A stretch of 64,000 bases of DNA from Bacillus sp. NP157 (GTDB lineage: Bacteria; Pseudomonadota; Gammaproteobacteria; Xanthomonadales; Rhodanobacteraceae). The translations under genes were made by a program, and so were the position numbers. Positions 52,652 through 63,233 of the stretch are shown piece by piece. Within the stretch, counting starts at the first letter, position 1. Each line of letters begins with the position of its first letter. The notes below the pieces were generated by a model. The model was not told the origin of the DNA and made no database searches. It worked only from the letters and a program-made list of their open reading frames with translations. The stretch is from assembly GCA_018889975.1 (NCBI GenBank), contig CP076546.1:682001-746000 (forward strand), in the 5' to 3' direction.

Positions 52652-53227
52652 ATGGAAGAGGCAGTGGATACGTCCGCGGTGCGCCTGGCGCTGCTCGAGA
52701 AGAAGCTCGCGCGTGCCGATATCTCGATCAAGTTGCTGGGGATCGCCGTGCTCGCCCTGGCCGGGCTTGCCTTCATGCGTACGCGATCGGCGACGGTCGA
52801 CTCGCTTGAAGTGCACCGATTGGTCATGCGCGACGACCACGGCGTGAAGCGCGTTGAGATTGCGCAGGACGACACGGCATGGCGCCGTGCCATGTCGGCG
52901 GGCGTTCGCATTTTCGATGCGAAGGGCGACGAGCGAGGCGGCATGTCGACCTTCGCGGACGGCTCGGTAACGCTGTCGCTGGACGCGCCCAAGGGCGTCG
53001 GCGCATCGATGTCGGATCGTGGCGGCCTCGTGGTCGATGCGGATGGCTCGGCGAAGTTGCAGCTCCTGGCCAACGACACCGGTGCCGTCGTGAGCCTGGC
53101 CACCGATGGCAACAAGGGTGGGCTGGAGCTTTATCGCTTCGACAAGACGGCGAACGCCGCTTACATCCGTCGCGTGACCTATGCCGGCGAGGAGCAGGAG
53201 AAGTTCGACCTCCCGGCAAACCAGTAA
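52652..53227 (+). CDS. Single-pass membrane protein of unknown function
   Basis: A 191-residue protein: N-terminal short helix (LALLEKKLARADISIK), one TM segment (LLGIAVLALAGLAFM, about 28-42), then a beta-rich extracytoplasmic domain. Repeated short strands follow (VHRLVMRDDHGVKRVEIAQ, VRIFDAKGDERGGMSTFADGSVTLSLD, GGLVVDADGSAKLQLL, AVVSLATDGNKGGLELYRF), suggesting a regular beta-solenoid or sheet. It is 165 bp upstream of the TIR gene on the same strand with a CRP-type site between, so it is probably separately transcribed. Confidence 0.7.
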   Translation: MEEAVDTSAVRLALLEKKLARADISIKLLGIAVLALAGLAFMRTRSATVDSLEVHRLVMRDDHGVKRVEIAQDDTAWRRAMSAGVRIFDAKGDERGGMSTFADGSVTLSLDAPKGVGASMSDRGGLVVDADGSAKLQLLANDTGAVVSLATDGNKGGLELYRFDKTANAAYIRRVTYAGEEQEKFDLPANQ

Positions 53228-53263: not shown

Positions 53264-53287
53264 AAATTGTGACCGGCATCACATTTT
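53264..53287. promoter_or_regulatory. CRP/Clp-type operator with perfect half-sites
   Basis: TGTGACCGGCATCACA (53268-53283) is a perfect TGTGA-N6-TCACA palindrome flanked by A/T, the consensus of E. coli CRP and of Xanthomonas Clp (a CRP homologue inhibited by c-di-GMP). It lies upstream of the TIR gene, in an AT-rich gap. I cannot place a convincing -10 box at class I or II spacing, so activation or repression is open. Confidence 0.75.
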
Positions 53288-53392
53288 GGTGCTAGGTTAA
53301 ACGCTCGCCTGCCCGGATATCGAAGCAGGCGCGTGCCTTGTCCCGGCGGGGGTGGATGGGGTGCCCTCCGCTTTGCCGTGGGGACTGCACGC

Positions 53393-55603
53393 GTGCTTGG
53401 GGAAGGTTCGCCGCCGGCGCTGCGCTATCGCGCCTTCATCAGCTACAGCCACCGGGACAAAGCCTGGGCGGCATGGCTGCATCGCGCGCTCGAAACCTAT
53501 GCGATCCCGCGACGCCTCGTCGGCGAGGAGACGCCCGCGGGCATCGTGCCACGCCGGCTTGCACCGATCTTCCGCGACACCGACGAACTGGCCACCGCGC
53601 GCGACCTCGGCCAGAAGGTCGACGAAGCCCTTGCCCAGTCGGCCTGCCTGCTGGTGGTCTGTTCGCCTGACGCGGCCCGCTCGCGTTGGGTCGACGAGGA
53701 GGTGCGCAGCTACCAGCGCATGGGCGGCAGCGAGCGAATTTTCTGCCTCGTCGTCGGCGGCGTGCCCAATGCGAGCCAGGCGTCCGATCGCGCGCTGGAC
53801 GAATGCTTTCCACCATCGTTGCGCCGGCGTTGCGACGCGCAGGGCAACCTGGTCGACGACGTGATCGAACCGCTGGCCGCCGACGTGCGCCCGGGCGGCG
53901 ACGGCAAGCTCGGTGCCCGGCACAAACTCGTCGCCGGGATGCTCGGCATCGAGTTGGACACGCTACGACGCCGCGACCTGCAGCGTCGTGCCCGGCGTGC
54001 CATGGCCCTGTCGGCCGTGGCCGTCGCGGTGATGGTCGTGACCACCGGCCTGGCGATCAACGCCACCATCGCCCGTCGCGCAGCGGTGCAGGCAAGCCAC
54101 GTCGCGGAACGCCGGCAGAAGGATGCCGAAGACCTCGTCGCCTTCATGCTTGGCGACCTCAACGACCGGCTGGCACAGGTCTCCCGGCGGGACATCATGG
54201 AAAGCGTGGACGACCGCGCCATGGCGTATTTCGAAGCGCAGCCCACTGATGAAACCAGCGACCGCGCGCTGGCCCAGCGGGTGACGGCGCTGCAGCGGAT
54301 CGGCAGCGTGCGGCTCGACCAGGGCCGGCTGGACGCGGCCATGGCCTCGTACCAGGCCGCGCGCGTGGTGGCTGCACGGCTTGCCGCTTCGTCACCCCGG
54401 GACCTGCGCCGGCAGATCGCGCTGGGCGAGGTGGAGTCGTTCATCGGCATGGTGTACTGGCGGCAGGGCAGCCTGGACCACGCGCAGGCGTCCTTCATGC
54501 AGGCGCAGTCGGTGCTCGGGCACGCAGGCAGCATCGCGCCGCAGGACCATGCGCTGGGTTTCCAGCTGGCGATGCTCGACAACAACATCGGCCATGTGAT
54601 GGAAGCGCGCGGCGAGCTGGAAACGGCGGCCCTGCAATACCACGCGATGCTCGCGCTGATGCAGGTGCTGGTCGCGGCAGAACCTGCGAACGGAGACTGG
54701 GCCGAATCGCTCGGCTCGGCCTACAACAACCTTGGCAAGCTGGCCCTGCTGCGCGGCGAACTCGCCACCGCGGTGTCGAACTATGCGGCCGAAGAAAACA
54801 TCCTCGCCAGGCTGGCGCAGGTCGATCCCAAGGATGCGAACCTGCGCGACAGCCTGTTGACCATCCACGCCATCCTCGGTCGCACGCAAGCGCTGGCCGG
54901 TGACGTGCAACAGGGTGTCGAGCGCCTGCAGCGCGCCGTCGACATGGCCGGTGAGCTGGCGCTGCTGGACCCGAGCAACACCGAAGCGCAGGAACACCTC
55001 GCGCTGTATGCCACCCAGCTGGCTCGCCTGCGCCGGTTGCAAGGTGATCTTCCCGCGGCGGCCGCGTTATCCGGCAGGGCGTTGCCGATCTTCGCCACGC
55101 TGCGCAAGCACGAACCCGATAACACGGCATGGCAGCGCGAAGACGCCGAGGCGCGCATCGAACACGCGGCCCAGGCTCGCGCACGCCGAGAAATGGCGAC
55201 GGCACTGGCGTCGGCGAACGAGGCGCGGCGTGCGCTCGAACCCTTGCTCGCCGGACAGCCGGACGACCGCGCGACACTGCTCGCCACGCTGGCGGCGCGA
55301 CTGGCCGTCGCCGCGGCGACGCCGGACCCACTGGCGGCGCAGTCCCTGCGCGAGGCCGTGGTCCACGACGTAGCCGGCGTGAAGAGCGGGCAGGGCGATC
55401 CGCGCCTGCTCGCCCTGCAGGTCGAGGCTCTGCTGGGCCTGGGCCGTCATCGTGAAGCCGACCCGCCGGTACGCCAGCTCTGGAACGCCGGCTACCGCGA
55501 CCTGGCGCTGGTCCAGCGGCTGGCCTCCGCACGCATCGATTACCCCGTCAACACCGCCTTCCAGCGTGAGCTGGTCGCGGCCACGGCGGGAGGAAACCGC
55601 TAG
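53393..55603 (+). CDS. TIR domain - transmembrane - TPR protein
   Basis: A 736-residue protein. The TIR domain (about 11-165) has RAFISYSHRDKAWAAWLH, IFRDTDELATA (BB-loop region), ACLLVVCSPDAARSRWVDEEV and FCLVVGG. Glu102/Glu103 after W are placed like the catalytic Glu of TIR NADases. One TM helix (about 203-224) is followed by a linker (DAEDLVAFMLGDLNDRL) and TPR-like helical repeats to about 600. GTG starts exist at 53333 and 53393; the latter gives a compact lead-in to the TIR fold. Next come a 50-residue ORF and a SLOG-TM gene, suggesting signal production by TIR, sensing by SLOG. TIR scaffolding without catalysis is the main alternative. Confidence 0.88.
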   Translation: MLGEGSPPALRYRAFISYSHRDKAWAAWLHRALETYAIPRRLVGEETPAGIVPRRLAPIFRDTDELATARDLGQKVDEALAQSACLLVVCSPDAARSRWVDEEVRSYQRMGGSERIFCLVVGGVPNASQASDRALDECFPPSLRRRCDAQGNLVDDVIEPLAADVRPGGDGKLGARHKLVAGMLGIELDTLRRRDLQRRARRAMALSAVAVAVMVVTTGLAINATIARRAAVQASHVAERRQKDAEDLVAFMLGDLNDRLAQVSRRDIMESVDDRAMAYFEAQPTDETSDRALAQRVTALQRIGSVRLDQGRLDAAMASYQAARVVAARLAASSPRDLRRQIALGEVESFIGMVYWRQGSLDHAQASFMQAQSVLGHAGSIAPQDHALGFQLAMLDNNIGHVMEARGELETAALQYHAMLALMQVLVAAEPANGDWAESLGSAYNNLGKLALLRGELATAVSNYAAEENILARLAQVDPKDANLRDSLLTIHAILGRTQALAGDVQQGVERLQRAVDMAGELALLDPSNTEAQEHLALYATQLARLRRLQGDLPAAAALSGRALPIFATLRKHEPDNTAWQREDAEARIEHAAQARARREMATALASANEARRALEPLLAGQPDDRATLLATLAARLAVAAATPDPLAAQSLREAVVHDVAGVKSGQGDPRLLALQVEALLGLGRHREADPPVRQLWNAGYRDLALVQRLASARIDYPVNTAFQRELVAATAGGNR

Positions 55604-55645
55604 CACGGAGCGCTTCCGATCCACCCACCGCTGCAGGAGACGATC

Positions 55646-55798
55646 ATGGCGAACAACCCCAACGACGCACCGACCAACGAAGACGATAGCCGCCGGCTTC
55701 GTGAGGACGAAAACGGCCCGGACCTGGAGCGCGACATCGCCAGGCCCGGCGATCCGTCGTCCAACGTGACCACGTCGCCCCGGATCAAGAACAACTGA
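55646..55798 (+). CDS. 50-residue hydrophilic small protein between TIR and SLOG genes
   Basis: A short gene: ATG 55646 with AGGAGA at 55635-55640, stop 55798. The product opens MANNPNDAPTNEDDSRRLRE and is rich in Asn, Asp, Glu and Arg with no hydrophobic core, so it is probably disordered. It lies 43 bp after the TIR gene and 83 bp before the SLOG gene on the same strand. It could be a regulator, a chaperone-like partner, or an unrelated small stress protein. Confidence 0.6.
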   Translation: MANNPNDAPTNEDDSRRLREDENGPDLERDIARPGDPSSNVTTSPRIKNN

Positions 55799-55880
55799 AC
55801 GATCGCGCCGGCGCCACGGGGATCGGCAGGCTCCCCGCGGTGTCGTGCGGCTGATTTTTAACGCTTGCGGACATCGATGC

Positions 55881-57566
55881 ATGATCCCCCTGGTCGTCGG
55901 CGTCACCAGTCACCGCGATATCGCGGCCAGCGACAGCGAGGTCGTGCGCGAACGCGTGCGCACGTTCTTCGCCACGCTGCGCGATACGTTTCCCAACCTG
56001 CCGCTGCTCGTGCTGTCCGCCCTGGCCGAAGGCGGCGACCAGCTGGTGGCCGAAGAAGCGCTGGCGATCGGTGCGCGGCTGGTGGCGCCGTTGCCGCTTC
56101 CCCCCGATCTCTACATCGACGACTTCGACGACGCCGGTGTGCGCGCGACGTTCGAGTCGCTGAGCAAACGCTCGGAAGTCGTCCTGCTGCCGCGCCTGAT
56201 GGAGGCGCCACGCCACGTCGTCGGGCTACCCGGCGCGGGGCGTGACCGGCAGTACGCGAAGGCGGGTGTCTACATCGCCAGCCACTGCCACGTGTTGCTG
56301 GCGCTGTGGGACGGCAAGGAAGCCAACGGCGTGGGCGGTACGGCGCAGATCGTCCATTACCATCTCACCGGCGCCTTGCCCGGGCCGAGCCTGCGCCATG
56401 CGCACGCCCGGCATATCCTCGGCGGGGGCGACGAAAGTCTGCTGTATCACGTCGTTTGCCCGCGTGCGGGCGAGCCGGTCGCCGATGGCCTGCAGGCGGG
56501 CGAGGCCGGATGGCGCAGCGTCGAGGACATGGCGTTCCGGGCCGACTTGCCGGACGACTTCCGGCTGATGTTCGAGCGCATGGCGGAGTTCAACGTGGAT
56601 GTGCAGCGGCACGCGGCGGAGATCGCCGATGCGCCGCGCAGCCTGCACGGCAGCCCCTGTGGCGCCACCGCGACCATCGAAGCGGTGTTCCATGCCGCCG
56701 ACTGGCTGGCGGTGCACTTCCGCAAGCGGGTGGTGCTCGCCTTGCGCGGCACCTATACGGTGGCCGCATTGATGGGCATCGCGTTCACCTTCTACGCGCA
56801 CCTGCCCGGGAATAACTCGCTGATCTATTTTTTCCTGCTGCTCTTTGCCACCGGCGGCTTCGTGGCCATGCTCGCGGGCCGGCGTGGCTGGCATCGCAAA
56901 TACCTGGACTACCGGGCGCTGGCCGAAGGTTTGCGTATCCAGTCGTGCTGGCGGCGGGCGGGCATCGCCACCAGCGCCGACCACGAGTTCGCGCACGACA
57001 ACTTCCTGCAGAAGCAGAACATCGAGCTGGGCTGGATCCGCAACGTGATGCGCGCGGCTAGCCTGTACCCTTCGACCCACCCGGAAGAGCCTGACGAAAC
57101 CAGCCTGCGCGAAGTGATCGCCGAATGGGTTGGCGAATCAGGCCGTTCCGGGCAGTTGCACTACTACGAGAGCAAGACCGCGGAACGTACCGGCCTGCAC
57201 CACCTCACCGAAACCATCGGGCGGATCAGCCTGTGGGGCGGTATCGCGATCAGCGCCTTCCTCGCGGTGTTTGCGCTGCGCCTTGAAGAGGGCACGAAGG
57301 TCACGCTGGTGACGGTCATGGCGGTGTTGTCGATCGTCGCCGCGGTGCGCGAGGCCTACGCGTATCGCAAGGCCGACCGTGAACTGATCCGTCAGTACTG
57401 CTTCATGCAGCACATCTTCACCCGCGCCCGCACGGCACTGGACCGGACCCACGACCCGGCGCAGCAGCGGGCGATCCTGCTGGCCCTCGGCGACGCCGCC
57501 CTCACCGAGCACGCCGAATGGACCCTCATGCAACGCGAACGCCAGGTCGAGCACAGCAAACTGTAG
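55881..57566 (+). CDS. SLOG-like nucleotide-sensor domain fused to two TM hairpins
   Basis: A 561-residue protein. The N-terminal Rossmann-like domain (1-165) has VVGVTSHRDIAAS, LSALAEGGDQLVAEEAL (46-61), YAKAGVYIASHCHVLLALWDG (125-145) and GVGGTAQIVHY (150-160), a pattern of SLOG/LOG-like nucleotide-binding proteins. The C-terminal part has TM pairs at about 284-304/314-332 and 449-467/474-490, each followed by a charged helix (RGWHRKYLDYRALAEGLR, REAYAYRKADRELIRQY), as in SLATT or DUF4231 2-TM effectors. Opening of the membrane on nucleotide binding is the inferred activity. ATG 55881 is chosen over GTG 55845. The stop TAG lies inside a REP copy. Confidence 0.75.
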   Translation: MIPLVVGVTSHRDIAASDSEVVRERVRTFFATLRDTFPNLPLLVLSALAEGGDQLVAEEALAIGARLVAPLPLPPDLYIDDFDDAGVRATFESLSKRSEVVLLPRLMEAPRHVVGLPGAGRDRQYAKAGVYIASHCHVLLALWDGKEANGVGGTAQIVHYHLTGALPGPSLRHAHARHILGGGDESLLYHVVCPRAGEPVADGLQAGEAGWRSVEDMAFRADLPDDFRLMFERMAEFNVDVQRHAAEIADAPRSLHGSPCGATATIEAVFHAADWLAVHFRKRVVLALRGTYTVAALMGIAFTFYAHLPGNNSLIYFFLLLFATGGFVAMLAGRRGWHRKYLDYRALAEGLRIQSCWRRAGIATSADHEFAHDNFLQKQNIELGWIRNVMRAASLYPSTHPEEPDETSLREVIAEWVGESGRSGQLHYYESKTAERTGLHHLTETIGRISLWGGIAISAFLAVFALRLEEGTKVTLVTVMAVLSIVAAVREAYAYRKADRELIRQYCFMQHIFTRARTALDRTHDPAQQRAILLALGDAALTEHAEWTLMQRERQVEHSKL

Positions 57567-57584
57567 GAGCGCGCCTGCGCGCGA
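57563..57584 (+). repeat. REP palindrome overlapping a stop codon
   Basis: A full GTAG-headed REP copy whose first four bases include the TAG stop (57564-57566) of the SLOG gene. The mRNA of that gene therefore ends in the REP hairpin, which could protect it from 3' exonucleases. Confidence 0.9.
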
Positions 57585-57793: not shown

Positions 57794-59146
57794 ATGCTTC
57801 ACGCGAAGGCGCCGCTAGCCGCCGCATGCTTCTCCAGCCTGCTGCTGTCCGCATGCGCGCATTACACCCGCTTGCCGCTGGACACCCATGCGCACTACGC
57901 ACCCAGCGTAGCCGCGCTGCATGGTGCGCCCGCGCAGGCCGCGCCCCTCGACGAAGCCGACGTCGTCCGGCTCGTCCTGCAAAACAACCCCTCGCTGCAA
58001 ACCTCGGCGCTGCGCACGCAAGAGGCACGCATGCAGGGCGACGCGGCGGCGCGGCCGCCCAACCCGTCGTTCGCCGGCAGCCTTGGTTACCTGATATCCG
58101 GCGCGGGTAACGCCACGGCGTGGACGGCCGCGCTCTCGCAACCGGTGAATGGCTGGATCACGCTACGCGCGCGTCGCGACGAAGCGCGGGCGAGCGTGGC
58201 CGAGGTCGACGCGACGCTGGCATGGGAAGCATGGCAAGCCGTGGCGAAGGCCCGGCAACTCTATGCGAGCATCCTGTTGAACGAGACGTTGCAAGCCGTG
58301 CAGATCGACACGGCGGCTATCCTGCAGCGGCAGGCGCAGGCGATGCAGGCGGCGCTCGCGCGTGGCGACGTGGACATGGCGTCGGTCGCACCGATCGCGC
58401 TGGCCACGAGCGAAGCAACGCTCGCACGCGACGAGACCGGCCGGACCTTGCTCGCGCAACAGCGCGAATTGCATGCATTGCTTGGCCTGTCATCCAGCGC
58501 GCCGCTCGAACTCGGTCCGCTGCCCACGCTTGCGCCGCTGGACGCCGCCGCGATGGCACAGGCGATCGACGACCTGCCGCGTCATCGGCCCGACCTGGTC
58601 GCCCTCGCCATGGGCTACGACGCGCAGGATGCCCGCTTTCGCGCGGCGGTGCTCAGTCAGTTCCCCGCGTTGACGCTCGGCTACGACGCATCCCAGGACA
58701 ACAGCAAGGTGAGGAACGGTGGCCCGGCGGCCAGCATCGACCTGCCCGTGTTCGATACCGGCCGTGCCGGTGCCGCCGCGAGCGAGGCGACGCGGCAGCG
58801 CCTGCACGACGAATACGCGGCGCGCATCGCCGATGCGACCGACGAAGCGGCGGCGTTGCTGCGCGCGAACCACGCCGATGCGTCGCCGGAGGCGGCAGAT
58901 ACATCGCAGCCCAGCGCGCCGACCACGACTGCGTTTTCGCTAAACGATCCATCGACGCCGGCAGCGCGTGCGCTCGCCCGTGGCGACATCGATCGGGCGG
59001 CCTACACCGACCTGGCCATCGCATCGCTTGCGCGGCGTGCCGCCGTGGTTCGCACGGAACTCGCGCTGCGTGAGCAGCGCATCGGGCTCGAAGCCCTGCT
59101 GGGCATCGGCATGCCCGCGTTCGACATCGACACGAAGGTTCACTGA
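57794..59146 (+). CDS. TolC-family outer-membrane efflux lipoprotein
   Basis: A 450-residue outer-membrane channel component. The signal peptide ends in LLLSAC (Cys21 lipidation). The two-repeat TolC body shows LDEADVVRLVLQNNPSLQTSALRTQEARMQ, LYASILLNETLQAVQ, LSQFPALTLGYDAS and IDLPVFDTGR, with a second helix pair late in the protein. The segment 370-395 is Pro/Ala/Ser/Thr-rich and unusual for TolC, a probable loop insertion. The stop overlaps the adaptor start by one base, so it leads a three-gene RND operon. The substrate is unknown. Confidence 0.88.
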   Translation: MLHAKAPLAAACFSSLLLSACAHYTRLPLDTHAHYAPSVAALHGAPAQAAPLDEADVVRLVLQNNPSLQTSALRTQEARMQGDAAARPPNPSFAGSLGYLISGAGNATAWTAALSQPVNGWITLRARRDEARASVAEVDATLAWEAWQAVAKARQLYASILLNETLQAVQIDTAAILQRQAQAMQAALARGDVDMASVAPIALATSEATLARDETGRTLLAQQRELHALLGLSSSAPLELGPLPTLAPLDAAAMAQAIDDLPRHRPDLVALAMGYDAQDARFRAAVLSQFPALTLGYDASQDNSKVRNGGPAASIDLPVFDTGRAGAAASEATRQRLHDEYAARIADATDEAAALLRANHADASPEAADTSQPSAPTTTAFSLNDPSTPAARALARGDIDRAAYTDLAIASLARRAAVVRTELALREQRIGLEALLGIGMPAFDIDTKVH

Positions 59147-60192
59147 TGGATAGCCGTCTTACCGCCATCGCCATGGCCGCCTGCCTGCTACTGGGCGCAT
59201 GCCGCGACGACAGCACCGACGAGGTGGCCCACGAGGTCGCCTCCGCCGCCGTGCGCCTGGACACGGTGCGCCAGGGCAGCCTGCCGCGCACGGTGCTGGC
59301 GTGGGGCGACGCCGGCACGGGAGCCACGCTGCAGCACGCCGTTGCGCTGGGCGTCGACGGCGCGTTCGTGTCGTTCGCCGTCAGCCCGGGCGATGCCGTG
59401 CACCGGCAGCAGCTGCTGGGGACCTTCCAGCTCACGGCGAACGCGCTGGCGGCCCTGCGCCAGGCCCGCTCGGCGCTCGACGCTGCCGTGCAGTCGCGCG
59501 ATCGGCTGCTTCGGCTGCGCCAGGACAACCTGGCGACCGACGAACAGGTGGCGCAAGCGGGGAAGGGCGTCGACGATGCCCGGGCGACGCTGGCGACGTT
59601 CCCCGCGGGCATGGGCAAGGATGGCCGCCTGGCGCTTCGCGCGCCGGAGGACGGCACGGTCGCCTCCATCGCCGTGGCCACCGGCCAGTCGGTGCCCGCG
59701 AACGCGCCGCTGTTGATGATCAGTCCCAGCCAGGGTGTCGAGGTGGTCGGCAGCATCGAGCCAGCGAGCGCCGGCCTCGCCGCGCCGGGCATGCCGGCGC
59801 GGCTGACCCCGGTCGCCGGCGGTGAGGTCACGGAAGGACGCGTCACCCACGTCGGGCGCGCCATCGATCCATCGACGCGCGGCGTCCCCGTGCAGGTTCA
59901 ACCAGCGCAGCCGGTGATGCCAGGCAGCACGTGGCGCATCGAGATCGTCGTCGGCCACGCCGACGGATGGCTGGTGCCCGCCGACGCGCTGGTCGACGAA
60001 GGCGCCGGCCGGGCCTTGTTCCAGGTACGCCGCGGCAAGGCCCATCGGGTGCCCGTGCACGTCGTGTTCGAAGAGGCGGGACAGGCTATCGTCAGCGGTG
60101 ACGTCGATCCGTCGGAAGCGCTGGTCACGGTCGGTGCGCCGCAGCTGGCCGAAGGCATGACCGTCGTGTCGACCAGCGAGGCACGTCGATGA
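59146..60192 (+). CDS. RND efflux periplasmic adaptor (MFP) lipoprotein
   Basis: A 348-residue adaptor linking the RND pump to the TolC channel. Lipobox LLGAC with Cys19, a barrel-sandwich part (VDGAFVSFAVSPGDAVHRQQLLGTF), a short helical hairpin (ALRQARSALDAAVQSRDRLLRLRQ...ATDEQVAQAGKGVDDARATL), then LRAPEDGTVASIAVATGQSVPANAPLLMI, a beta-barrel (GMPARLTPVAGGEVTEGRV) and a membrane-proximal part. The hairpin is short, as in HlyD-like adaptors of heavy-metal-type pumps. ATGA overlap with the pump gene. Confidence 0.88.
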   Translation: MDSRLTAIAMAACLLLGACRDDSTDEVAHEVASAAVRLDTVRQGSLPRTVLAWGDAGTGATLQHAVALGVDGAFVSFAVSPGDAVHRQQLLGTFQLTANALAALRQARSALDAAVQSRDRLLRLRQDNLATDEQVAQAGKGVDDARATLATFPAGMGKDGRLALRAPEDGTVASIAVATGQSVPANAPLLMISPSQGVEVVGSIEPASAGLAAPGMPARLTPVAGGEVTEGRVTHVGRAIDPSTRGVPVQVQPAQPVMPGSTWRIEIVVGHADGWLVPADALVDEGAGRALFQVRRGKAHRVPVHVVFEEAGQAIVSGDVDPSEALVTVGAPQLAEGMTVVSTSEARR

Positions 60193-63100
60193 TGGTGTCG
60201 CTGCTCGGGCGCCACGCCCGCGCCTTGCTGGTGATCGCGTTGCTGCTGGCGGCGATGGGTGCGGTGGCCGCGATGGGTTTGCCGGTCGGCCTGTTCCCGC
60301 AGGTCTCGTTTCCACGCATCGTCGTCGACCTGTCGGCCGGCGACCGTCCCGCGGACACGACCTCGCTGCTGCTGACCCGGCCGGTGGAGGATGCCATCCG
60401 TTCGGTGCCCGGGGTCGAAAGCGTGCGCTCGGAGACCTCGCGTGGCGAGGCGCAGGTTTCGGTCGACTTCGGCTGGGGCCGGGACATGATCGCGTCGACC
60501 CTGCTGGTGGACGCGGCACTCGCGCGTGCGCTGCCCGATCTTCCCGCGGGCACGCGCTACGACGTGCGGCGGATGGACCCGACGGTGTTCCCGATCATTT
60601 CCTATGCGCTGCGCTCGGACACCCTGTCGCCCGTCGCGCTGCGCGACCTCGCGCAATACCGCATCGCTCCGCTGCTCGCTTCGATCCCCGGCCTGGCCCG
60701 CGTCGGTGTCCAGGGCGGCGACACGGCCGAGATCCAGGTCGAGGCCGATCCGCATGCACTCGCCGCGCACGGCCTGGCGATGCCGGATCTGGTCGCGGCG
60801 ATCGGCGCGGCGAACACCATCCAGTCGGTGGGACGCCTGCAGGATCGACACAAGCTCTACCTCGTCGTCGCCAACGACCCGCTGAAGGATGCACGGGACG
60901 TTGCCGCGATCACCCTGCGCAACACCGCTGGCGGCCGTGTCACGCTGGGCGACGTGGCCAGCGTGAGCATGGGCGTGGCGCCGCAGTGGACACGCGTCGT
61001 GGAAGATGGCCGTCCAGCCGTGCTGTTGAACGTCTACGAGCAACCCGACGGTAACGCGGTGAAGATTGCCGCTGCCGTGCGCGCCACGCTCGCCCGCATG
61101 CCCCTGCCACCCGGCGTCGGCCTGAAAAAATGGTATGACCAGAGCGAACTGGTGACAGCGTCGGCGGCCAGCGTACGCGACGCGATCGCCGTCGGCATGC
61201 TGCTGGCGGCTGCGGTGCTGTTTGCGTTCCTGCGTAGCTTCCGGCTCGTCGTCATCGTGCTCGTGGTTGTGCCGGCAATCCTCTGCGCCACCGTGCTGTG
61301 CCTGCGCGTGGCCGGGCTTGGTTTCAATATCATGACGCTGGGCGGGATGGCCGCGGCGGTGGGCCTGGTCATCGACGACGTGATGGTGATGGTCGAGCAC
61401 GTCGCGCGCCGGGTCGTGGCAAGCAAGCATCCCACGGACGCGCGGCCGATCATCCACGCCGCGGCGCGCGAGTTCCTGGTGCCTCTGTCCGGGTCCAGCC
61501 TGGCCACGCTGATCGTATTCGTGCCGCTCGCCTTCCTCGATGGCGTCACCGGTGCGTTCTCGCGCGCGCTGTCGGTCACGATGGGCGCGGCACTGATCGT
61601 GTCATGGCTGATGACGGCACTGGTGGTGCCGGTGCTGGCGGGACGCATCGCGCGGCCGGACAGCTGGCAACACGAACCGCGCCGCTGGGAACGCGCACTG
61701 GAGGCCGGCCACGGCAAGATGTTCGACCTGGCGTTGCGACGTCCGTGGCTGGCCGCGTTGGCCGTGCTCGTCGTGCTGGTGCTGGGTGGCATCGGCTACC
61801 AGCACGTGCCGACGGGTTTCATGCCCGAGACCGACGAGGGCGGCTTCGTCCTCGACTACTACACCGCGCCGGGTACCTCGCTGGTGGAAACCGAGCGCGA
61901 GGTGGCGCAGATCGAATCGCTATTGCGCATGGACCACGACGTGGAGACGTTCTCGCGGCGACTGGGTACCGGTCTCGGCGGCGACCTTGGCCAGTCCTAC
62001 CACGGCGATTTCTTTGTCCGCCTGGTTGCAGGCCATGCGCGGCACACGGTGGACGCCATGAGCGACGTACGCGATCGCATCCTGCACAACGTGCCGGGCG
62101 TGCAGGTCGAAGTGGCCCAGCTCACCGAAGACCTGATCGGTGACCTCACCGCGGTGCCACAACCGATCGAAGTAAAGCTCTATGCCGACGACGTGGGCGC
62201 GCTCGTGCCGCTGGCGGAGAAGGTCTCGGCGTTGCTGGCCAAGGTGCCTGGGCTGGTCGACGTGAAGAGCGGGGCGCAGGTGGCTGGCGATGCGCTGGAC
62301 GTGCACGTCAACCCGGATGCCGCGCTGGCCGAGGGACTCAGCGTGCAGGCGATCAGCCAGGCGATCGCCGACAGCCTGACCGGCGTGATCGCGACGGAAC
62401 TTCCCGGTGCGACCAAGGCCGTCGGTGTCCGCGTTGCCGCGCAGGGTGCGCGGAACTGGGGGATCGAAGATCTCGACGCGCTGCCGATCCGGTCACCGGA
62501 CGGACATCTGTTCCCGCTGTCGCGCGTGGCGACGCTGACGCCGGTGGCTGGCCAACCGCAGATCACCCGGGAAAACCTGCAGGACATGGTGCCGGTCACC
62601 GCGCGCATCGAACATGGCGGCATCGCGGCGGCCGTGGCCCGCGTGCGTGCGGCGCTGGCCAAACCAGGGGTCCTGCCGCCGGGAGTCCGCTACGAACTCG
62701 ACGGCCTGTACAAACAGCAGCAGGTGGCGTTCGCCGGCCTGCGCAACGTCTTCGCCGCCGCGCTCGCCGCCGAATTCATCCTGCTGATGTTCCTCTATCG
62801 GCGGATCGGGGTCGCGTTGCTGGTGATGGCCACGTCGCTGATCTCCGCCTGCGGCGTGTTCTTTGCGCTGTGGATCGCAGGGGTGGACCTGAACATCACG
62901 GCGATGATGGGCCTGGTAATGGTGCTCGGCATCGGTACGGAGATGGCGATCTTCCTGGTCTCCGAATACATGGCCGTGGGCGTGCGCTGGGGCTGGCGCT
63001 CGGCCATGCGCCGCGCGGTACGCAATCGCCTGCGTCCGATCACGATGACCACGCTGGCGGCGATCCTGACGCTGCTGCCCCTGGCGCTTGCGCTGGGCCA

Positions 63101-63233
63101 GGGTGCCGACATGCAGCAGCCGCTGGCCGTGGCTATCGTGGCGGGATTGCTCGTGCAGTTCCCGATGGTGCTGGTGGTCTTGCCGGTGGCGCTGCGCCTG
63201 CTCGATGGCCCGCGGCGGCCGACGCCCGGCTAG
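60189..63233 (+). CDS. RND efflux pump, inner-membrane component
   Basis: A 1014-residue RND transporter with the standard 12-TM, two-periplasmic-loop layout. TM4 keeps the acidic pair and downstream Glu in GLVIDDVMVMVEHVARR. The TM10 position that is Lys940 in AcrB is Glu here (GIGTEMAIFLVSEY), resembling CusA-type relay. Porter motifs RPVEDAIRSVPGVESV and FMPETDEGGFVLDY are present. It may export metal or small organic compounds; with a lipoprotein adaptor and TolC it forms a complete tripartite pump. It starts on the adaptor stop. Confidence 0.92.
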   Translation: MMVSLLGRHARALLVIALLLAAMGAVAAMGLPVGLFPQVSFPRIVVDLSAGDRPADTTSLLLTRPVEDAIRSVPGVESVRSETSRGEAQVSVDFGWGRDMIASTLLVDAALARALPDLPAGTRYDVRRMDPTVFPIISYALRSDTLSPVALRDLAQYRIAPLLASIPGLARVGVQGGDTAEIQVEADPHALAAHGLAMPDLVAAIGAANTIQSVGRLQDRHKLYLVVANDPLKDARDVAAITLRNTAGGRVTLGDVASVSMGVAPQWTRVVEDGRPAVLLNVYEQPDGNAVKIAAAVRATLARMPLPPGVGLKKWYDQSELVTASAASVRDAIAVGMLLAAAVLFAFLRSFRLVVIVLVVVPAILCATVLCLRVAGLGFNIMTLGGMAAAVGLVIDDVMVMVEHVARRVVASKHPTDARPIIHAAAREFLVPLSGSSLATLIVFVPLAFLDGVTGAFSRALSVTMGAALIVSWLMTALVVPVLAGRIARPDSWQHEPRRWERALEAGHGKMFDLALRRPWLAALAVLVVLVLGGIGYQHVPTGFMPETDEGGFVLDYYTAPGTSLVETEREVAQIESLLRMDHDVETFSRRLGTGLGGDLGQSYHGDFFVRLVAGHARHTVDAMSDVRDRILHNVPGVQVEVAQLTEDLIGDLTAVPQPIEVKLYADDVGALVPLAEKVSALLAKVPGLVDVKSGAQVAGDALDVHVNPDAALAEGLSVQAISQAIADSLTGVIATELPGATKAVGVRVAAQGARNWGIEDLDALPIRSPDGHLFPLSRVATLTPVAGQPQITRENLQDMVPVTARIEHGGIAAAVARVRAALAKPGVLPPGVRYELDGLYKQQQVAFAGLRNVFAAALAAEFILLMFLYRRIGVALLVMATSLISACGVFFALWIAGVDLNITAMMGLVMVLGIGTEMAIFLVSEYMAVGVRWGWRSAMRRAVRNRLRPITMTTLAAILTLLPLALALGQGADMQQPLAVAIVAGLLVQFPMVLVVLPVALRLLDGPRRPTPG

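Follow-up and report, generated by a model that had tools for sequence, protein, structure and literature searches.

A TIR-TM-TPR receptor, a tail-bearing small partner and a SLOG-(2TM)2 protein form a candidate signalling module in Bacillus sp. NP157

We describe a three-gene locus at positions 53264..57584 of a 64,000-nucleotide stretch of the genome of Bacillus sp. NP157, a soil bacterium (contig CP076546.1, positions 682,001 to 746,000; hereafter the window). Three consecutive plus-strand open reading frames (ORFs) encode a receptor with a TIR domain, a transmembrane (TM) segment and tetratricopeptide repeats (TPRs), a 50-aa protein, and a SLOG-like protein ending in two 2-TM hairpins. We propose, with a probability of roughly 0.55, that the three genes form a single conflict or stress-response module composed of a TIR-TM-TPR receptor, a partner that is read through its C-terminal tail and a SLOG-(2TM)2 effector and, jointly with this, that the 50-aa protein is a reduced form of a beta-sandwich partner resembling the DP-EP family. 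The initial annotation of this DNA had suggested a nucleotide-signalling defence module; taken as a whole, that interpretation is partly supported by the comparisons and structure predictions described below.

We found that the receptor and SLOG genes occur together far more often than chance would allow. In a sample of 147 genomes of the family, with the TIR-TPR gene called at E <= 1e-30, the SLOG-2TM gene was present in 49 genomes and the TIR-TPR gene in 48; 45 had both, four SLOG alone, three TIR alone and 95 neither (Fisher p 2e-29), as the initial annotation had anticipated. A TIR gene lies within 3 kb of the SLOG gene in 40/49 SLOG-positive genomes; coordinates were entered for 45 in this count, and the other four, having no TIR match, were scored as non-adjacent. 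Within the host genus, six of 12 sampled genomes carry both genes and six carry neither. The order and orientation of the module vary among loci, the TIR gene being upstream of, divergent from or downstream of the SLOG gene, and when eight close loci were compared at the DNA level seven shared the module without its flanks, only locus L031 sharing a flank with the window. Since the order varies and the flanks are mostly unshared, we conclude that the linkage is maintained by selection or by joint transfer. A near relative, L259, has the module and the left flank in the same arrangement as the window. Distances between SLOG proteins and between receptors were correlated (r 0.835, 26 loci; 0/2000 permutations as high); shared ancestry contributes to this correlation and could alone produce it. 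Our empty-site tests gave no empty site: of 23 genus genomes, just 8 and 12 contain the neighbouring genes, and L257 and L258, which contain a relative of LAB_N and no module in the stretch, had no further flank in common with the window.

The receptor matched the Pfam families TIR_2 and ThsB_TIR, both above cut-off, together with TPR_8 (Table 1), and one TM-grade segment (mean hydropathy >= 1.79) precedes the TPR in each of the 47 TIR receptors of alignment A2, in agreement with the TIR, TM and TPR parts first read from the sequence. The Glu of an S-x-W-x-x-x-E motif is invariant in 47/47 of these receptors. A conserved Glu had been pointed out before; its numbering as Glu102/Glu103 depends on the start codon chosen by that reader, and it is E123 here. 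A PDB search with the TIR part paired E123 with the WCLME Glu of the flax L6 TIR, the catalytic residue of that domain, in a weak match (E 0.25); all other matches were worse. The receptor TIR is a putative NAD+-converting enzyme. The best solved matches to the A2 profile were designed TPRs and the TPRs of kinesin light chain and OGT.

It can be seen from the AlphaFold model of the third protein that a SLOG Rossmann-like fold is joined to two long-helix hairpins, and hydropathy likewise gives two 2-TM hairpins; the SLOG-like domain and the paired hairpins of the initial annotation thus both stood up. Pfam matched no SLOG family and neither a SIR2 nor a macro domain, and its DUF4231 (22.6 vs 24.7 bits) and SLATT_1 (11.5 vs 26.3 bits) models scored below cut-off, as did SLATT_1 (25.3 vs 41 bits) and SLATT_3 (22.5 vs 45 bits) of NCBIfam. 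The protein is rare in an even sample of the class, with matches at E <= 1e-10 in 7/369 genomes, the window's own included and two of the seven being partial N-terminal matches. Distant relatives of the SLOG part were also found in eight plasmid records, and in all three that we inspected (Rhizobium, Caballeronia and Agrobacterium) they adjoin TIR genes with other effectors: plasmid p4 of Rhizobium binae has a TIR gene, a caspase gene, a SLOG gene annotated DUF1273 and a second TIR gene; the Agrobacterium plasmid has TIR, caspase and SLOG-relative genes; and the Caballeronia plasmid has a SLOG-DUF4231 gene, a TIR gene and a gene for a P-loop protein (nSTAND-like by eye) with WD40 repeats. These neighbours support, without proving, the view that a TIR product is the ligand of this SLOG branch. 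In the Rhizobium binae and Agrobacterium plasmids the TIR, caspase-family and SLOG-relative genes are consecutive (L228 4653-7022 and L230 4642-6483), which suggests a TIR-caspase system with a SLOG part.

The 50-aa protein, listed in the initial annotation but passed over there, proved to be the most telling component on account of its recurrent tail. It matched no Pfam family, DP-EP (PF08985) included. The exact pattern P-x-I-K-N-[N/T]-stop has a single match in the 4.88-Mb host genome, at the 50-aa gene. Many loci have one to three small ORFs between the receptor and SLOG genes, with different bodies and similar ends, for example TTNPGIKNT, TATNPTIKNN, GGGDPSIKNN and CDPVIRNQPTR. With a narrow pattern (P-x-[IVM]-x-N no more than 12 residues from the end, the residue before Pro left free, in an ORF no more than 1.5 kb behind the receptor) a tail was found behind 61/70 TIR receptors, against 2/70 on the opposite strand and 7/70 upstream, where some of the matches are further tail genes. 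A wide pattern gave 67/70 (controls 10/70 and 10/70); in two of the 67, L036 and L086, the match is a chance ORF and the real tail does not fit. The nine narrow misses are L034-L037, L039, L041 and L070, in which the motif has drifted, L086, in which the tail is not terminal, and L166, in which none was seen. Partners in the host genus are short tail proteins, the body being gone; the window, L031, L032 and L033 retain the motif, and L035-L037 have drifted versions of it. Among TIR loci with no SLOG gene nearby, a tail ORF is present in L155, L157, L158, L163 and L165 and not in L160, L161 and L166.

The residue before the tail Pro is D in 35 of 77 distinct TIR-class matches, N in 29 and neither in 13. 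The fixed P, I and N of the strict tails (61 distinct ones) are encoded by 4, 3 and 2 codons, respectively; this codon variation behind constant residues shows that selection acts at the protein level. The strict pattern, which demands D, N or S before Pro, matched 65/14585 ORFs. Of these, 45 could be assigned to a complete receptor ORF in front of them; the other 20 could not, in most cases because the receptor ORF had been truncated or overlooked (the TIR next to the L156 tail is absent). We prefer the figures with the pre-Pro position free. Partner domains of the TIR type were found 26 times in 97 genomes, 24 of them no further than 1 kb from a TIR gene; of the other two, one is beside a SLOG gene without a neighbouring TIR and one is an orphan. 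In these sequences the most constant element of the partner is P-x-[I/V]-x-N, while bodies, outputs and the pre-Pro residue change. The simplest explanation is that the tail is a recognition peptide that the TPR region would read. TPRs bind short peptides in general, and the RRNPP receptors, in which a TPR groove binds a short peptide, offer an analogy only.

Some partners depart from the usual layout. In L054 (4226-4411) and L058 (4761-4940) a Pro-Ala repeat linker with an RNPSIKNN or SNPLIKNR tail is encoded upstream of the TIR gene. The partner of L086 (2482-3072) has a DPQIKNGG motif followed by a C-terminal TM-like helix, showing that the tail is not always terminal. The small tail proteins of L045 (7297-7494) and L067 (7657-7857) have a signal-peptide-like start and share the stretch WFACAIGSQSCVS before the tail.

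The receptor belongs to a wider family. A model made of the juxtamembrane FMLGDL signature and the first TPRs (A3) matched in 148/348 genomes of the order, in open frames of mostly about 700 to 1270 aa; the window receptor, which has the signature followed by TPR, scores 5.1e-46 with this model, which includes the window sequence. By eye, at 23 loci, the outputs besides TIR are winged-helix DNA binding with P-loop nSTAND (wHTH-nSTAND) and Ser/Thr kinase. Among wHTH-nSTAND receptors chosen without regard to the partner, the narrow tail lies behind 9/12 and the wide one behind 10/12, with no narrow match on the opposite strand or upstream; the other three loci (L206, L214 and L215) have ORFs with CDPQVVC, CDPQVVN and CDPQVGN, outside the pattern. 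A fuller set gave wide-pattern tails behind 18/20 wHTH-nSTAND and 10/11 'other' receptors (those whose N-terminus is cut off or unmatched by simple class patterns), a set that includes 11 loci, L244-L254, fetched for their DP-EP gene (L252 being the same as L207). Without the loci so chosen, 'other' receptors have a tail ORF in 7/8 (wide) or 5/8 (narrow). Behind four kinase receptors (L222, L225, L226 and L227) there is, instead of a tail partner, an ORF resembling an extracytoplasmic function (ECF) sigma factor.

In the reverse test, all 11 DP-EP (PF08985) genes above cut-off in 98 genomes lie directly behind a TM-TPR receptor; that of L244, which is outside the model, scores 3.1e-30 with A3. 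Folded TIR-type partners of the window's relatives have the DP-EP fold, and the link to SO1698, the solved DP-EP protein, comes from fold, from Pfam and from searching with the sequence of a closer relative. PDB sequence searches with the partner of L093 and with A5 gave no convincing match, and the many immunoglobulin folds in the Foldseek list for the partner were set aside as fold-level background. The 29 rows of alignment A6 were picked as partners, so that their common motif is partly a matter of choice. Taken together, we tentatively put forward, at a little under even odds, a gammaproteobacterial modular membrane receptor family in which a TM-proximal FMLGDL-TPR region and a cognate P-x-[I/V]-x-N tail on a DP-EP-type partner form one conserved sensor unit, combined with exchangeable cytosolic outputs (TIR, DNA-binding nSTAND and, to some extent, protein kinase); its TIR branch would be a peptide-gated, NAD-signal-driven SLOG-(2TM)2 membrane-killing circuit, the partner having shrunk to little more than the tail in some lineages, the window included.

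For the window module we envisage the following sequence of events. The partner tail would dock on the receptor TPR and either hold the receptor off or activate it upon synthesis, cleavage or release of the partner; which sign the partner has, activator or brake, is not readable from the sequence. Clustered TIR domains would next turn NAD+ into an ADP-ribose-type signal, to be bound by the SLOG domain, and the two hairpins may in turn assemble and open or breach the inner membrane, leading to growth stop or cell death. The trigger may be a phage or some other attack.

A number of observations weigh against this proposal. Assignments of the third protein to SLOG and SLATT families were absent or below threshold in Pfam and NCBIfam. 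The TIR gene is elsewhere or on another contig in five SLOG-positive genomes and was undetected in four, and kinase-type receptors have a tail ORF in only 3/11 (narrow) or 5/11 (wide, one doubtful). The motif has drifted to IKST, TGVKNN, GAIKPS, PRIKPS or PRIKPT in L034-L037, L039, L041 and L070, three of these being Luteibacter. An orphan partner of 146 aa with the end NTNPSIKNN (L256, 6825-7265, minus strand) has no receptor or SLOG gene detected in its 14-kb stretch. The positive-inside rule is also at odds with the proposal: K+R residues average 5.6 before and 3.0 after the receptor TM, with the N-side larger in 46/47, which would make the TIR side cytosolic and leave the TPR on the outside, and yet only 3/62 distinct strict-tail partners have a signal-peptide-like start. 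Either the positive-inside rule misleads here or the partners reach the TPR in some other way; the receptor topology is itself uncertain because basic residues follow the TM. Lastly, neighbouring genes encode mostly ordinary metabolism and regulation (25 of 116 Pfam families listed).

The best of the other explanations, which we nevertheless regard as rather unlikely, makes the partner an antitoxin-like brake that occupies the receptor or the effector and so keeps it inactive, and whose loss, by degradation or by phage shut-off of expression, fires the TIR and the effector, the tail being an inhibitory plug. It would account for partners that are small and fast-diverging and whose genes immediately follow the receptor gene in the same orientation, for the several partners per locus in some genomes, and for partners without a neighbouring receptor, which would be tolerated brakes. 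It sits less easily with the partners that are tied to DNA-binding-output receptors, where a plain toxin brake is less natural.

SO1698 reportedly cuts itself at D116-P117, and a DP-EP-like partner might in the same way break its Asp-Pro (or Asn-Pro) bond and so release the P-x-[I/V]-x-N peptide as a pheromone-like signal to the TPR. We consider this unlikely, as the window tail has Ser-Pro and no folded domain, the D37 and K98 residues of SO1698 are by eye not conserved in TIR-type partners, and the residue before Pro is something other than D or N in 13/77. In the receptor-partner-effector module that we prefer, self-cleavage is a possible step but an unneeded one here, since D37 and K98 are not conserved and the window tail has Ser.

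The locus could also be a resident envelope-stress or housekeeping signalling set with no defence role, which we likewise think improbable. To look at the neighbourhood, 143 ORFs were picked from 29/80 loci and six long ORFs and one partner ORF were excluded, leaving 136, a few of which nonetheless belong to such modules as partner or TIR genes. No PADLOC family had more than three members among the 25 of 41 families listed, the matches including three TIR-like and one DpdE/ZorD-like helicase, and we rejected a defence-island reading. Nor could a defence system be assigned from PADLOC and NCBIfam scans. The SLOG protein is absent from 50,697 phage records and has no match in PHROGs, where all other matches were weak; one partial relative was found in viral contigs. 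We conclude that the defence role suggested in the initial annotation finds no support in these searches and that phage defence is a guess from the kinds of domain present. The lack of a defence-island sign, the absence from phage records and the transcriptional or kinase outputs of sister receptors, which look like ordinary regulation, are what a housekeeping set would predict; a patchy distribution within the genus (6/12 sampled), with mostly differing neighbourhoods, is not, and TIR, SLOG and SLATT are domains so far known from conflict systems. That the tail is instead a sorting or anchoring signal of the LPXTG or PEP-CTERM kind is very improbable, for while the C-terminal motif does sit on otherwise different bodies, three with signal-peptide-like starts and one (L086) with a TM-like helix behind the motif, the exact pattern occurs once in the host genome, whereas sorting signals mark many proteins, and 24/26 TIR-type partner domains lie beside a TIR gene.

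The features of the module are listed in Table 1. The receptor start codon is uncertain and may be GTG 53333 or GTG 53393. The longest ORF of the SLOG protein is 55845-57566 (573 aa, from GTG 55845), but its start is probably ATG 55881 because the alignments of relatives begin at about residue 13. Promoter and terminator scans gave signals at chance level. Directly upstream of the TIR gene, at 52652-53227, is a gene for a 191-aa protein with a hydrophobic stretch at its N-terminus, for which Pfam gave no match at E <= 1. The module is followed directly, at 57794-63233, by genes for TolC-like, membrane-fusion-like and RND-pump-like proteins (translations judged by eye), the first of which is found in only 8/23 genus genomes at E <= 1e-50.

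Table 1. Coordinates of module features in the window and the evidence on which each is based
Feature	Position	Strand	Basis
TIR-TM-TPR receptor gene	53333..55603	+	756 aa; Pfam TIR_2 1.9e-12, ThsB_TIR 6.7e-9, TPR_8 1.1e-6; 47-sequence alignment A2
TIR domain region	53423..53902	+	Pfam match to residues 35-142; alignment A2
Codon of invariant TIR Glu (P0001 E123), putative catalytic residue	53699..53701	+	alignment A2, column E95
Single TM segment	53999..54058	+	hydropathy scan of A2
Juxtamembrane signature around FMLGDL, receptor-family hallmark	54086..54232	+	first part of model A3
TPR region	54250..55600	+	TPR models; A2 profile vs solved structures
50-aa partner protein, tail-only form	55646..55798	+	AGGAG 6 nt 5' of ATG; same position as partner ORFs of relatives
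C-terminal tail SPRIKNN (P-x-I-x-N motif)	55775..55795	+	pattern search of 4.88-Mb genome; recurrence in relatives
SLOG-(2TM)2 effector gene	55881..57566	+	alignment A1, 42 sequences; AlphaFold pLDDT 83.2, pTM 0.83
SLOG domain	55881..56585	+	
First 2-TM hairpin, DUF4231/SLATT_3-like	56670..56885	+	AlphaFold helices 264-307 and 313-335; TM windows 284-302 and 314-332
Second 2-TM hairpin, SLATT_1-like	57150..57359	+	AlphaFold helices 424-467 and 470-493; TM windows 448-466 and 471-489

Compared with Thoeris (TIR ThsB with SIR2-SLOG ThsA), the window has a TIR with a putative catalytic Glu and has neither a SIR2-SLOG ThsA nor a TM-macro ThsA; its effector is without SIR2 and ends in two 2-TM hairpins, and its TIR is fused to a TM and TPR and has a dedicated tail partner. 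The sole match to an NCBIfam Thoeris model was far under cut-off (14.8 vs 220 bits). A 2015 paper by Aravind and co-workers is said to have predicted SLOG-SLATT pairs. In the window, by contrast with SLOG-SLATT or TIR-SLATT pairs, SLOG and two SLATT-like hairpins are in one chain, and a membrane-anchored TIR with TPR and tail partner is added. The window's 50-aa partner is like DP-EP proteins (PF08985, SO1698) in position, directly behind the receptor gene; the likeness of the family to such partners extends to fold and the C-terminal (S)PDPQIxN segment, but the window protein keeps the tail only, with Ser-Pro in place of the self-cutting Asp-Pro bond, and TIR-type partners often have N or S for the Asp and lack D37/K98.

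In the TM-macro ThsA type of Thoeris, a TIR-derived nucleotide is proposed to cluster the membrane segments of the effector, so that membrane action replaces the Sir2 NADase (PMC11204291); the reader domain there is macro and not SLOG, and in the excerpts of that account a TPR receptor and tail partner are not described. TIR-SLATT gene pairs are reported from Firmicute phages (PMC9503650), and the SLATT 2-TM unit is a predicted nucleotide-activated pore in excerpts from Aravind and co-workers (PMC9503650, PMC7159879). Actinobacterial FxSxx-COOH and other peptide-processing systems coupled to TPR and TIR/AP-ATPase proteins resemble the window module, as far as the excerpts go, in having a variable small precursor, a conserved C-terminal peptide and TPR-bearing conflict proteins, and differ in the motif and in a zincin-like peptidase and, in some types, a radical-SAM enzyme (PMC7159879), neither of which was seen beside the window module. 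Of the elements named in the initial annotation, membrane action in place of Sir2 (PMC11204291) and TIR-SLATT neighbours (PMC9503650) had already been put forward. In open-licence PubMed Central, among the matches listed, no text joined TIR domain, tetratricopeptide, Thoeris and SLOG, the phrase 'DP-EP family' was absent and the sole DUF1888/SO1698 match was unrelated by title; among these matches we found no description of a DP-EP partner of a TM-TPR receptor family, or of a TIR branch with a SLOG-(2TM)2 effector.

The receptor-ligand element may be more than a variation on known TIR systems. Close relatives of SO1698 serve as dedicated partners of a membrane TPR receptor, which places that solved protein in a genomic setting, and the TM-TPR receptor family is linked to TIR-SLOG signalling. 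If our proposal is true, a short C-terminal peptide would be the switch of a bacterial TIR receptor, and a SLOG-read, hairpin-type membrane effector would join the SIR2 and macro types as an output of TIR signalling.

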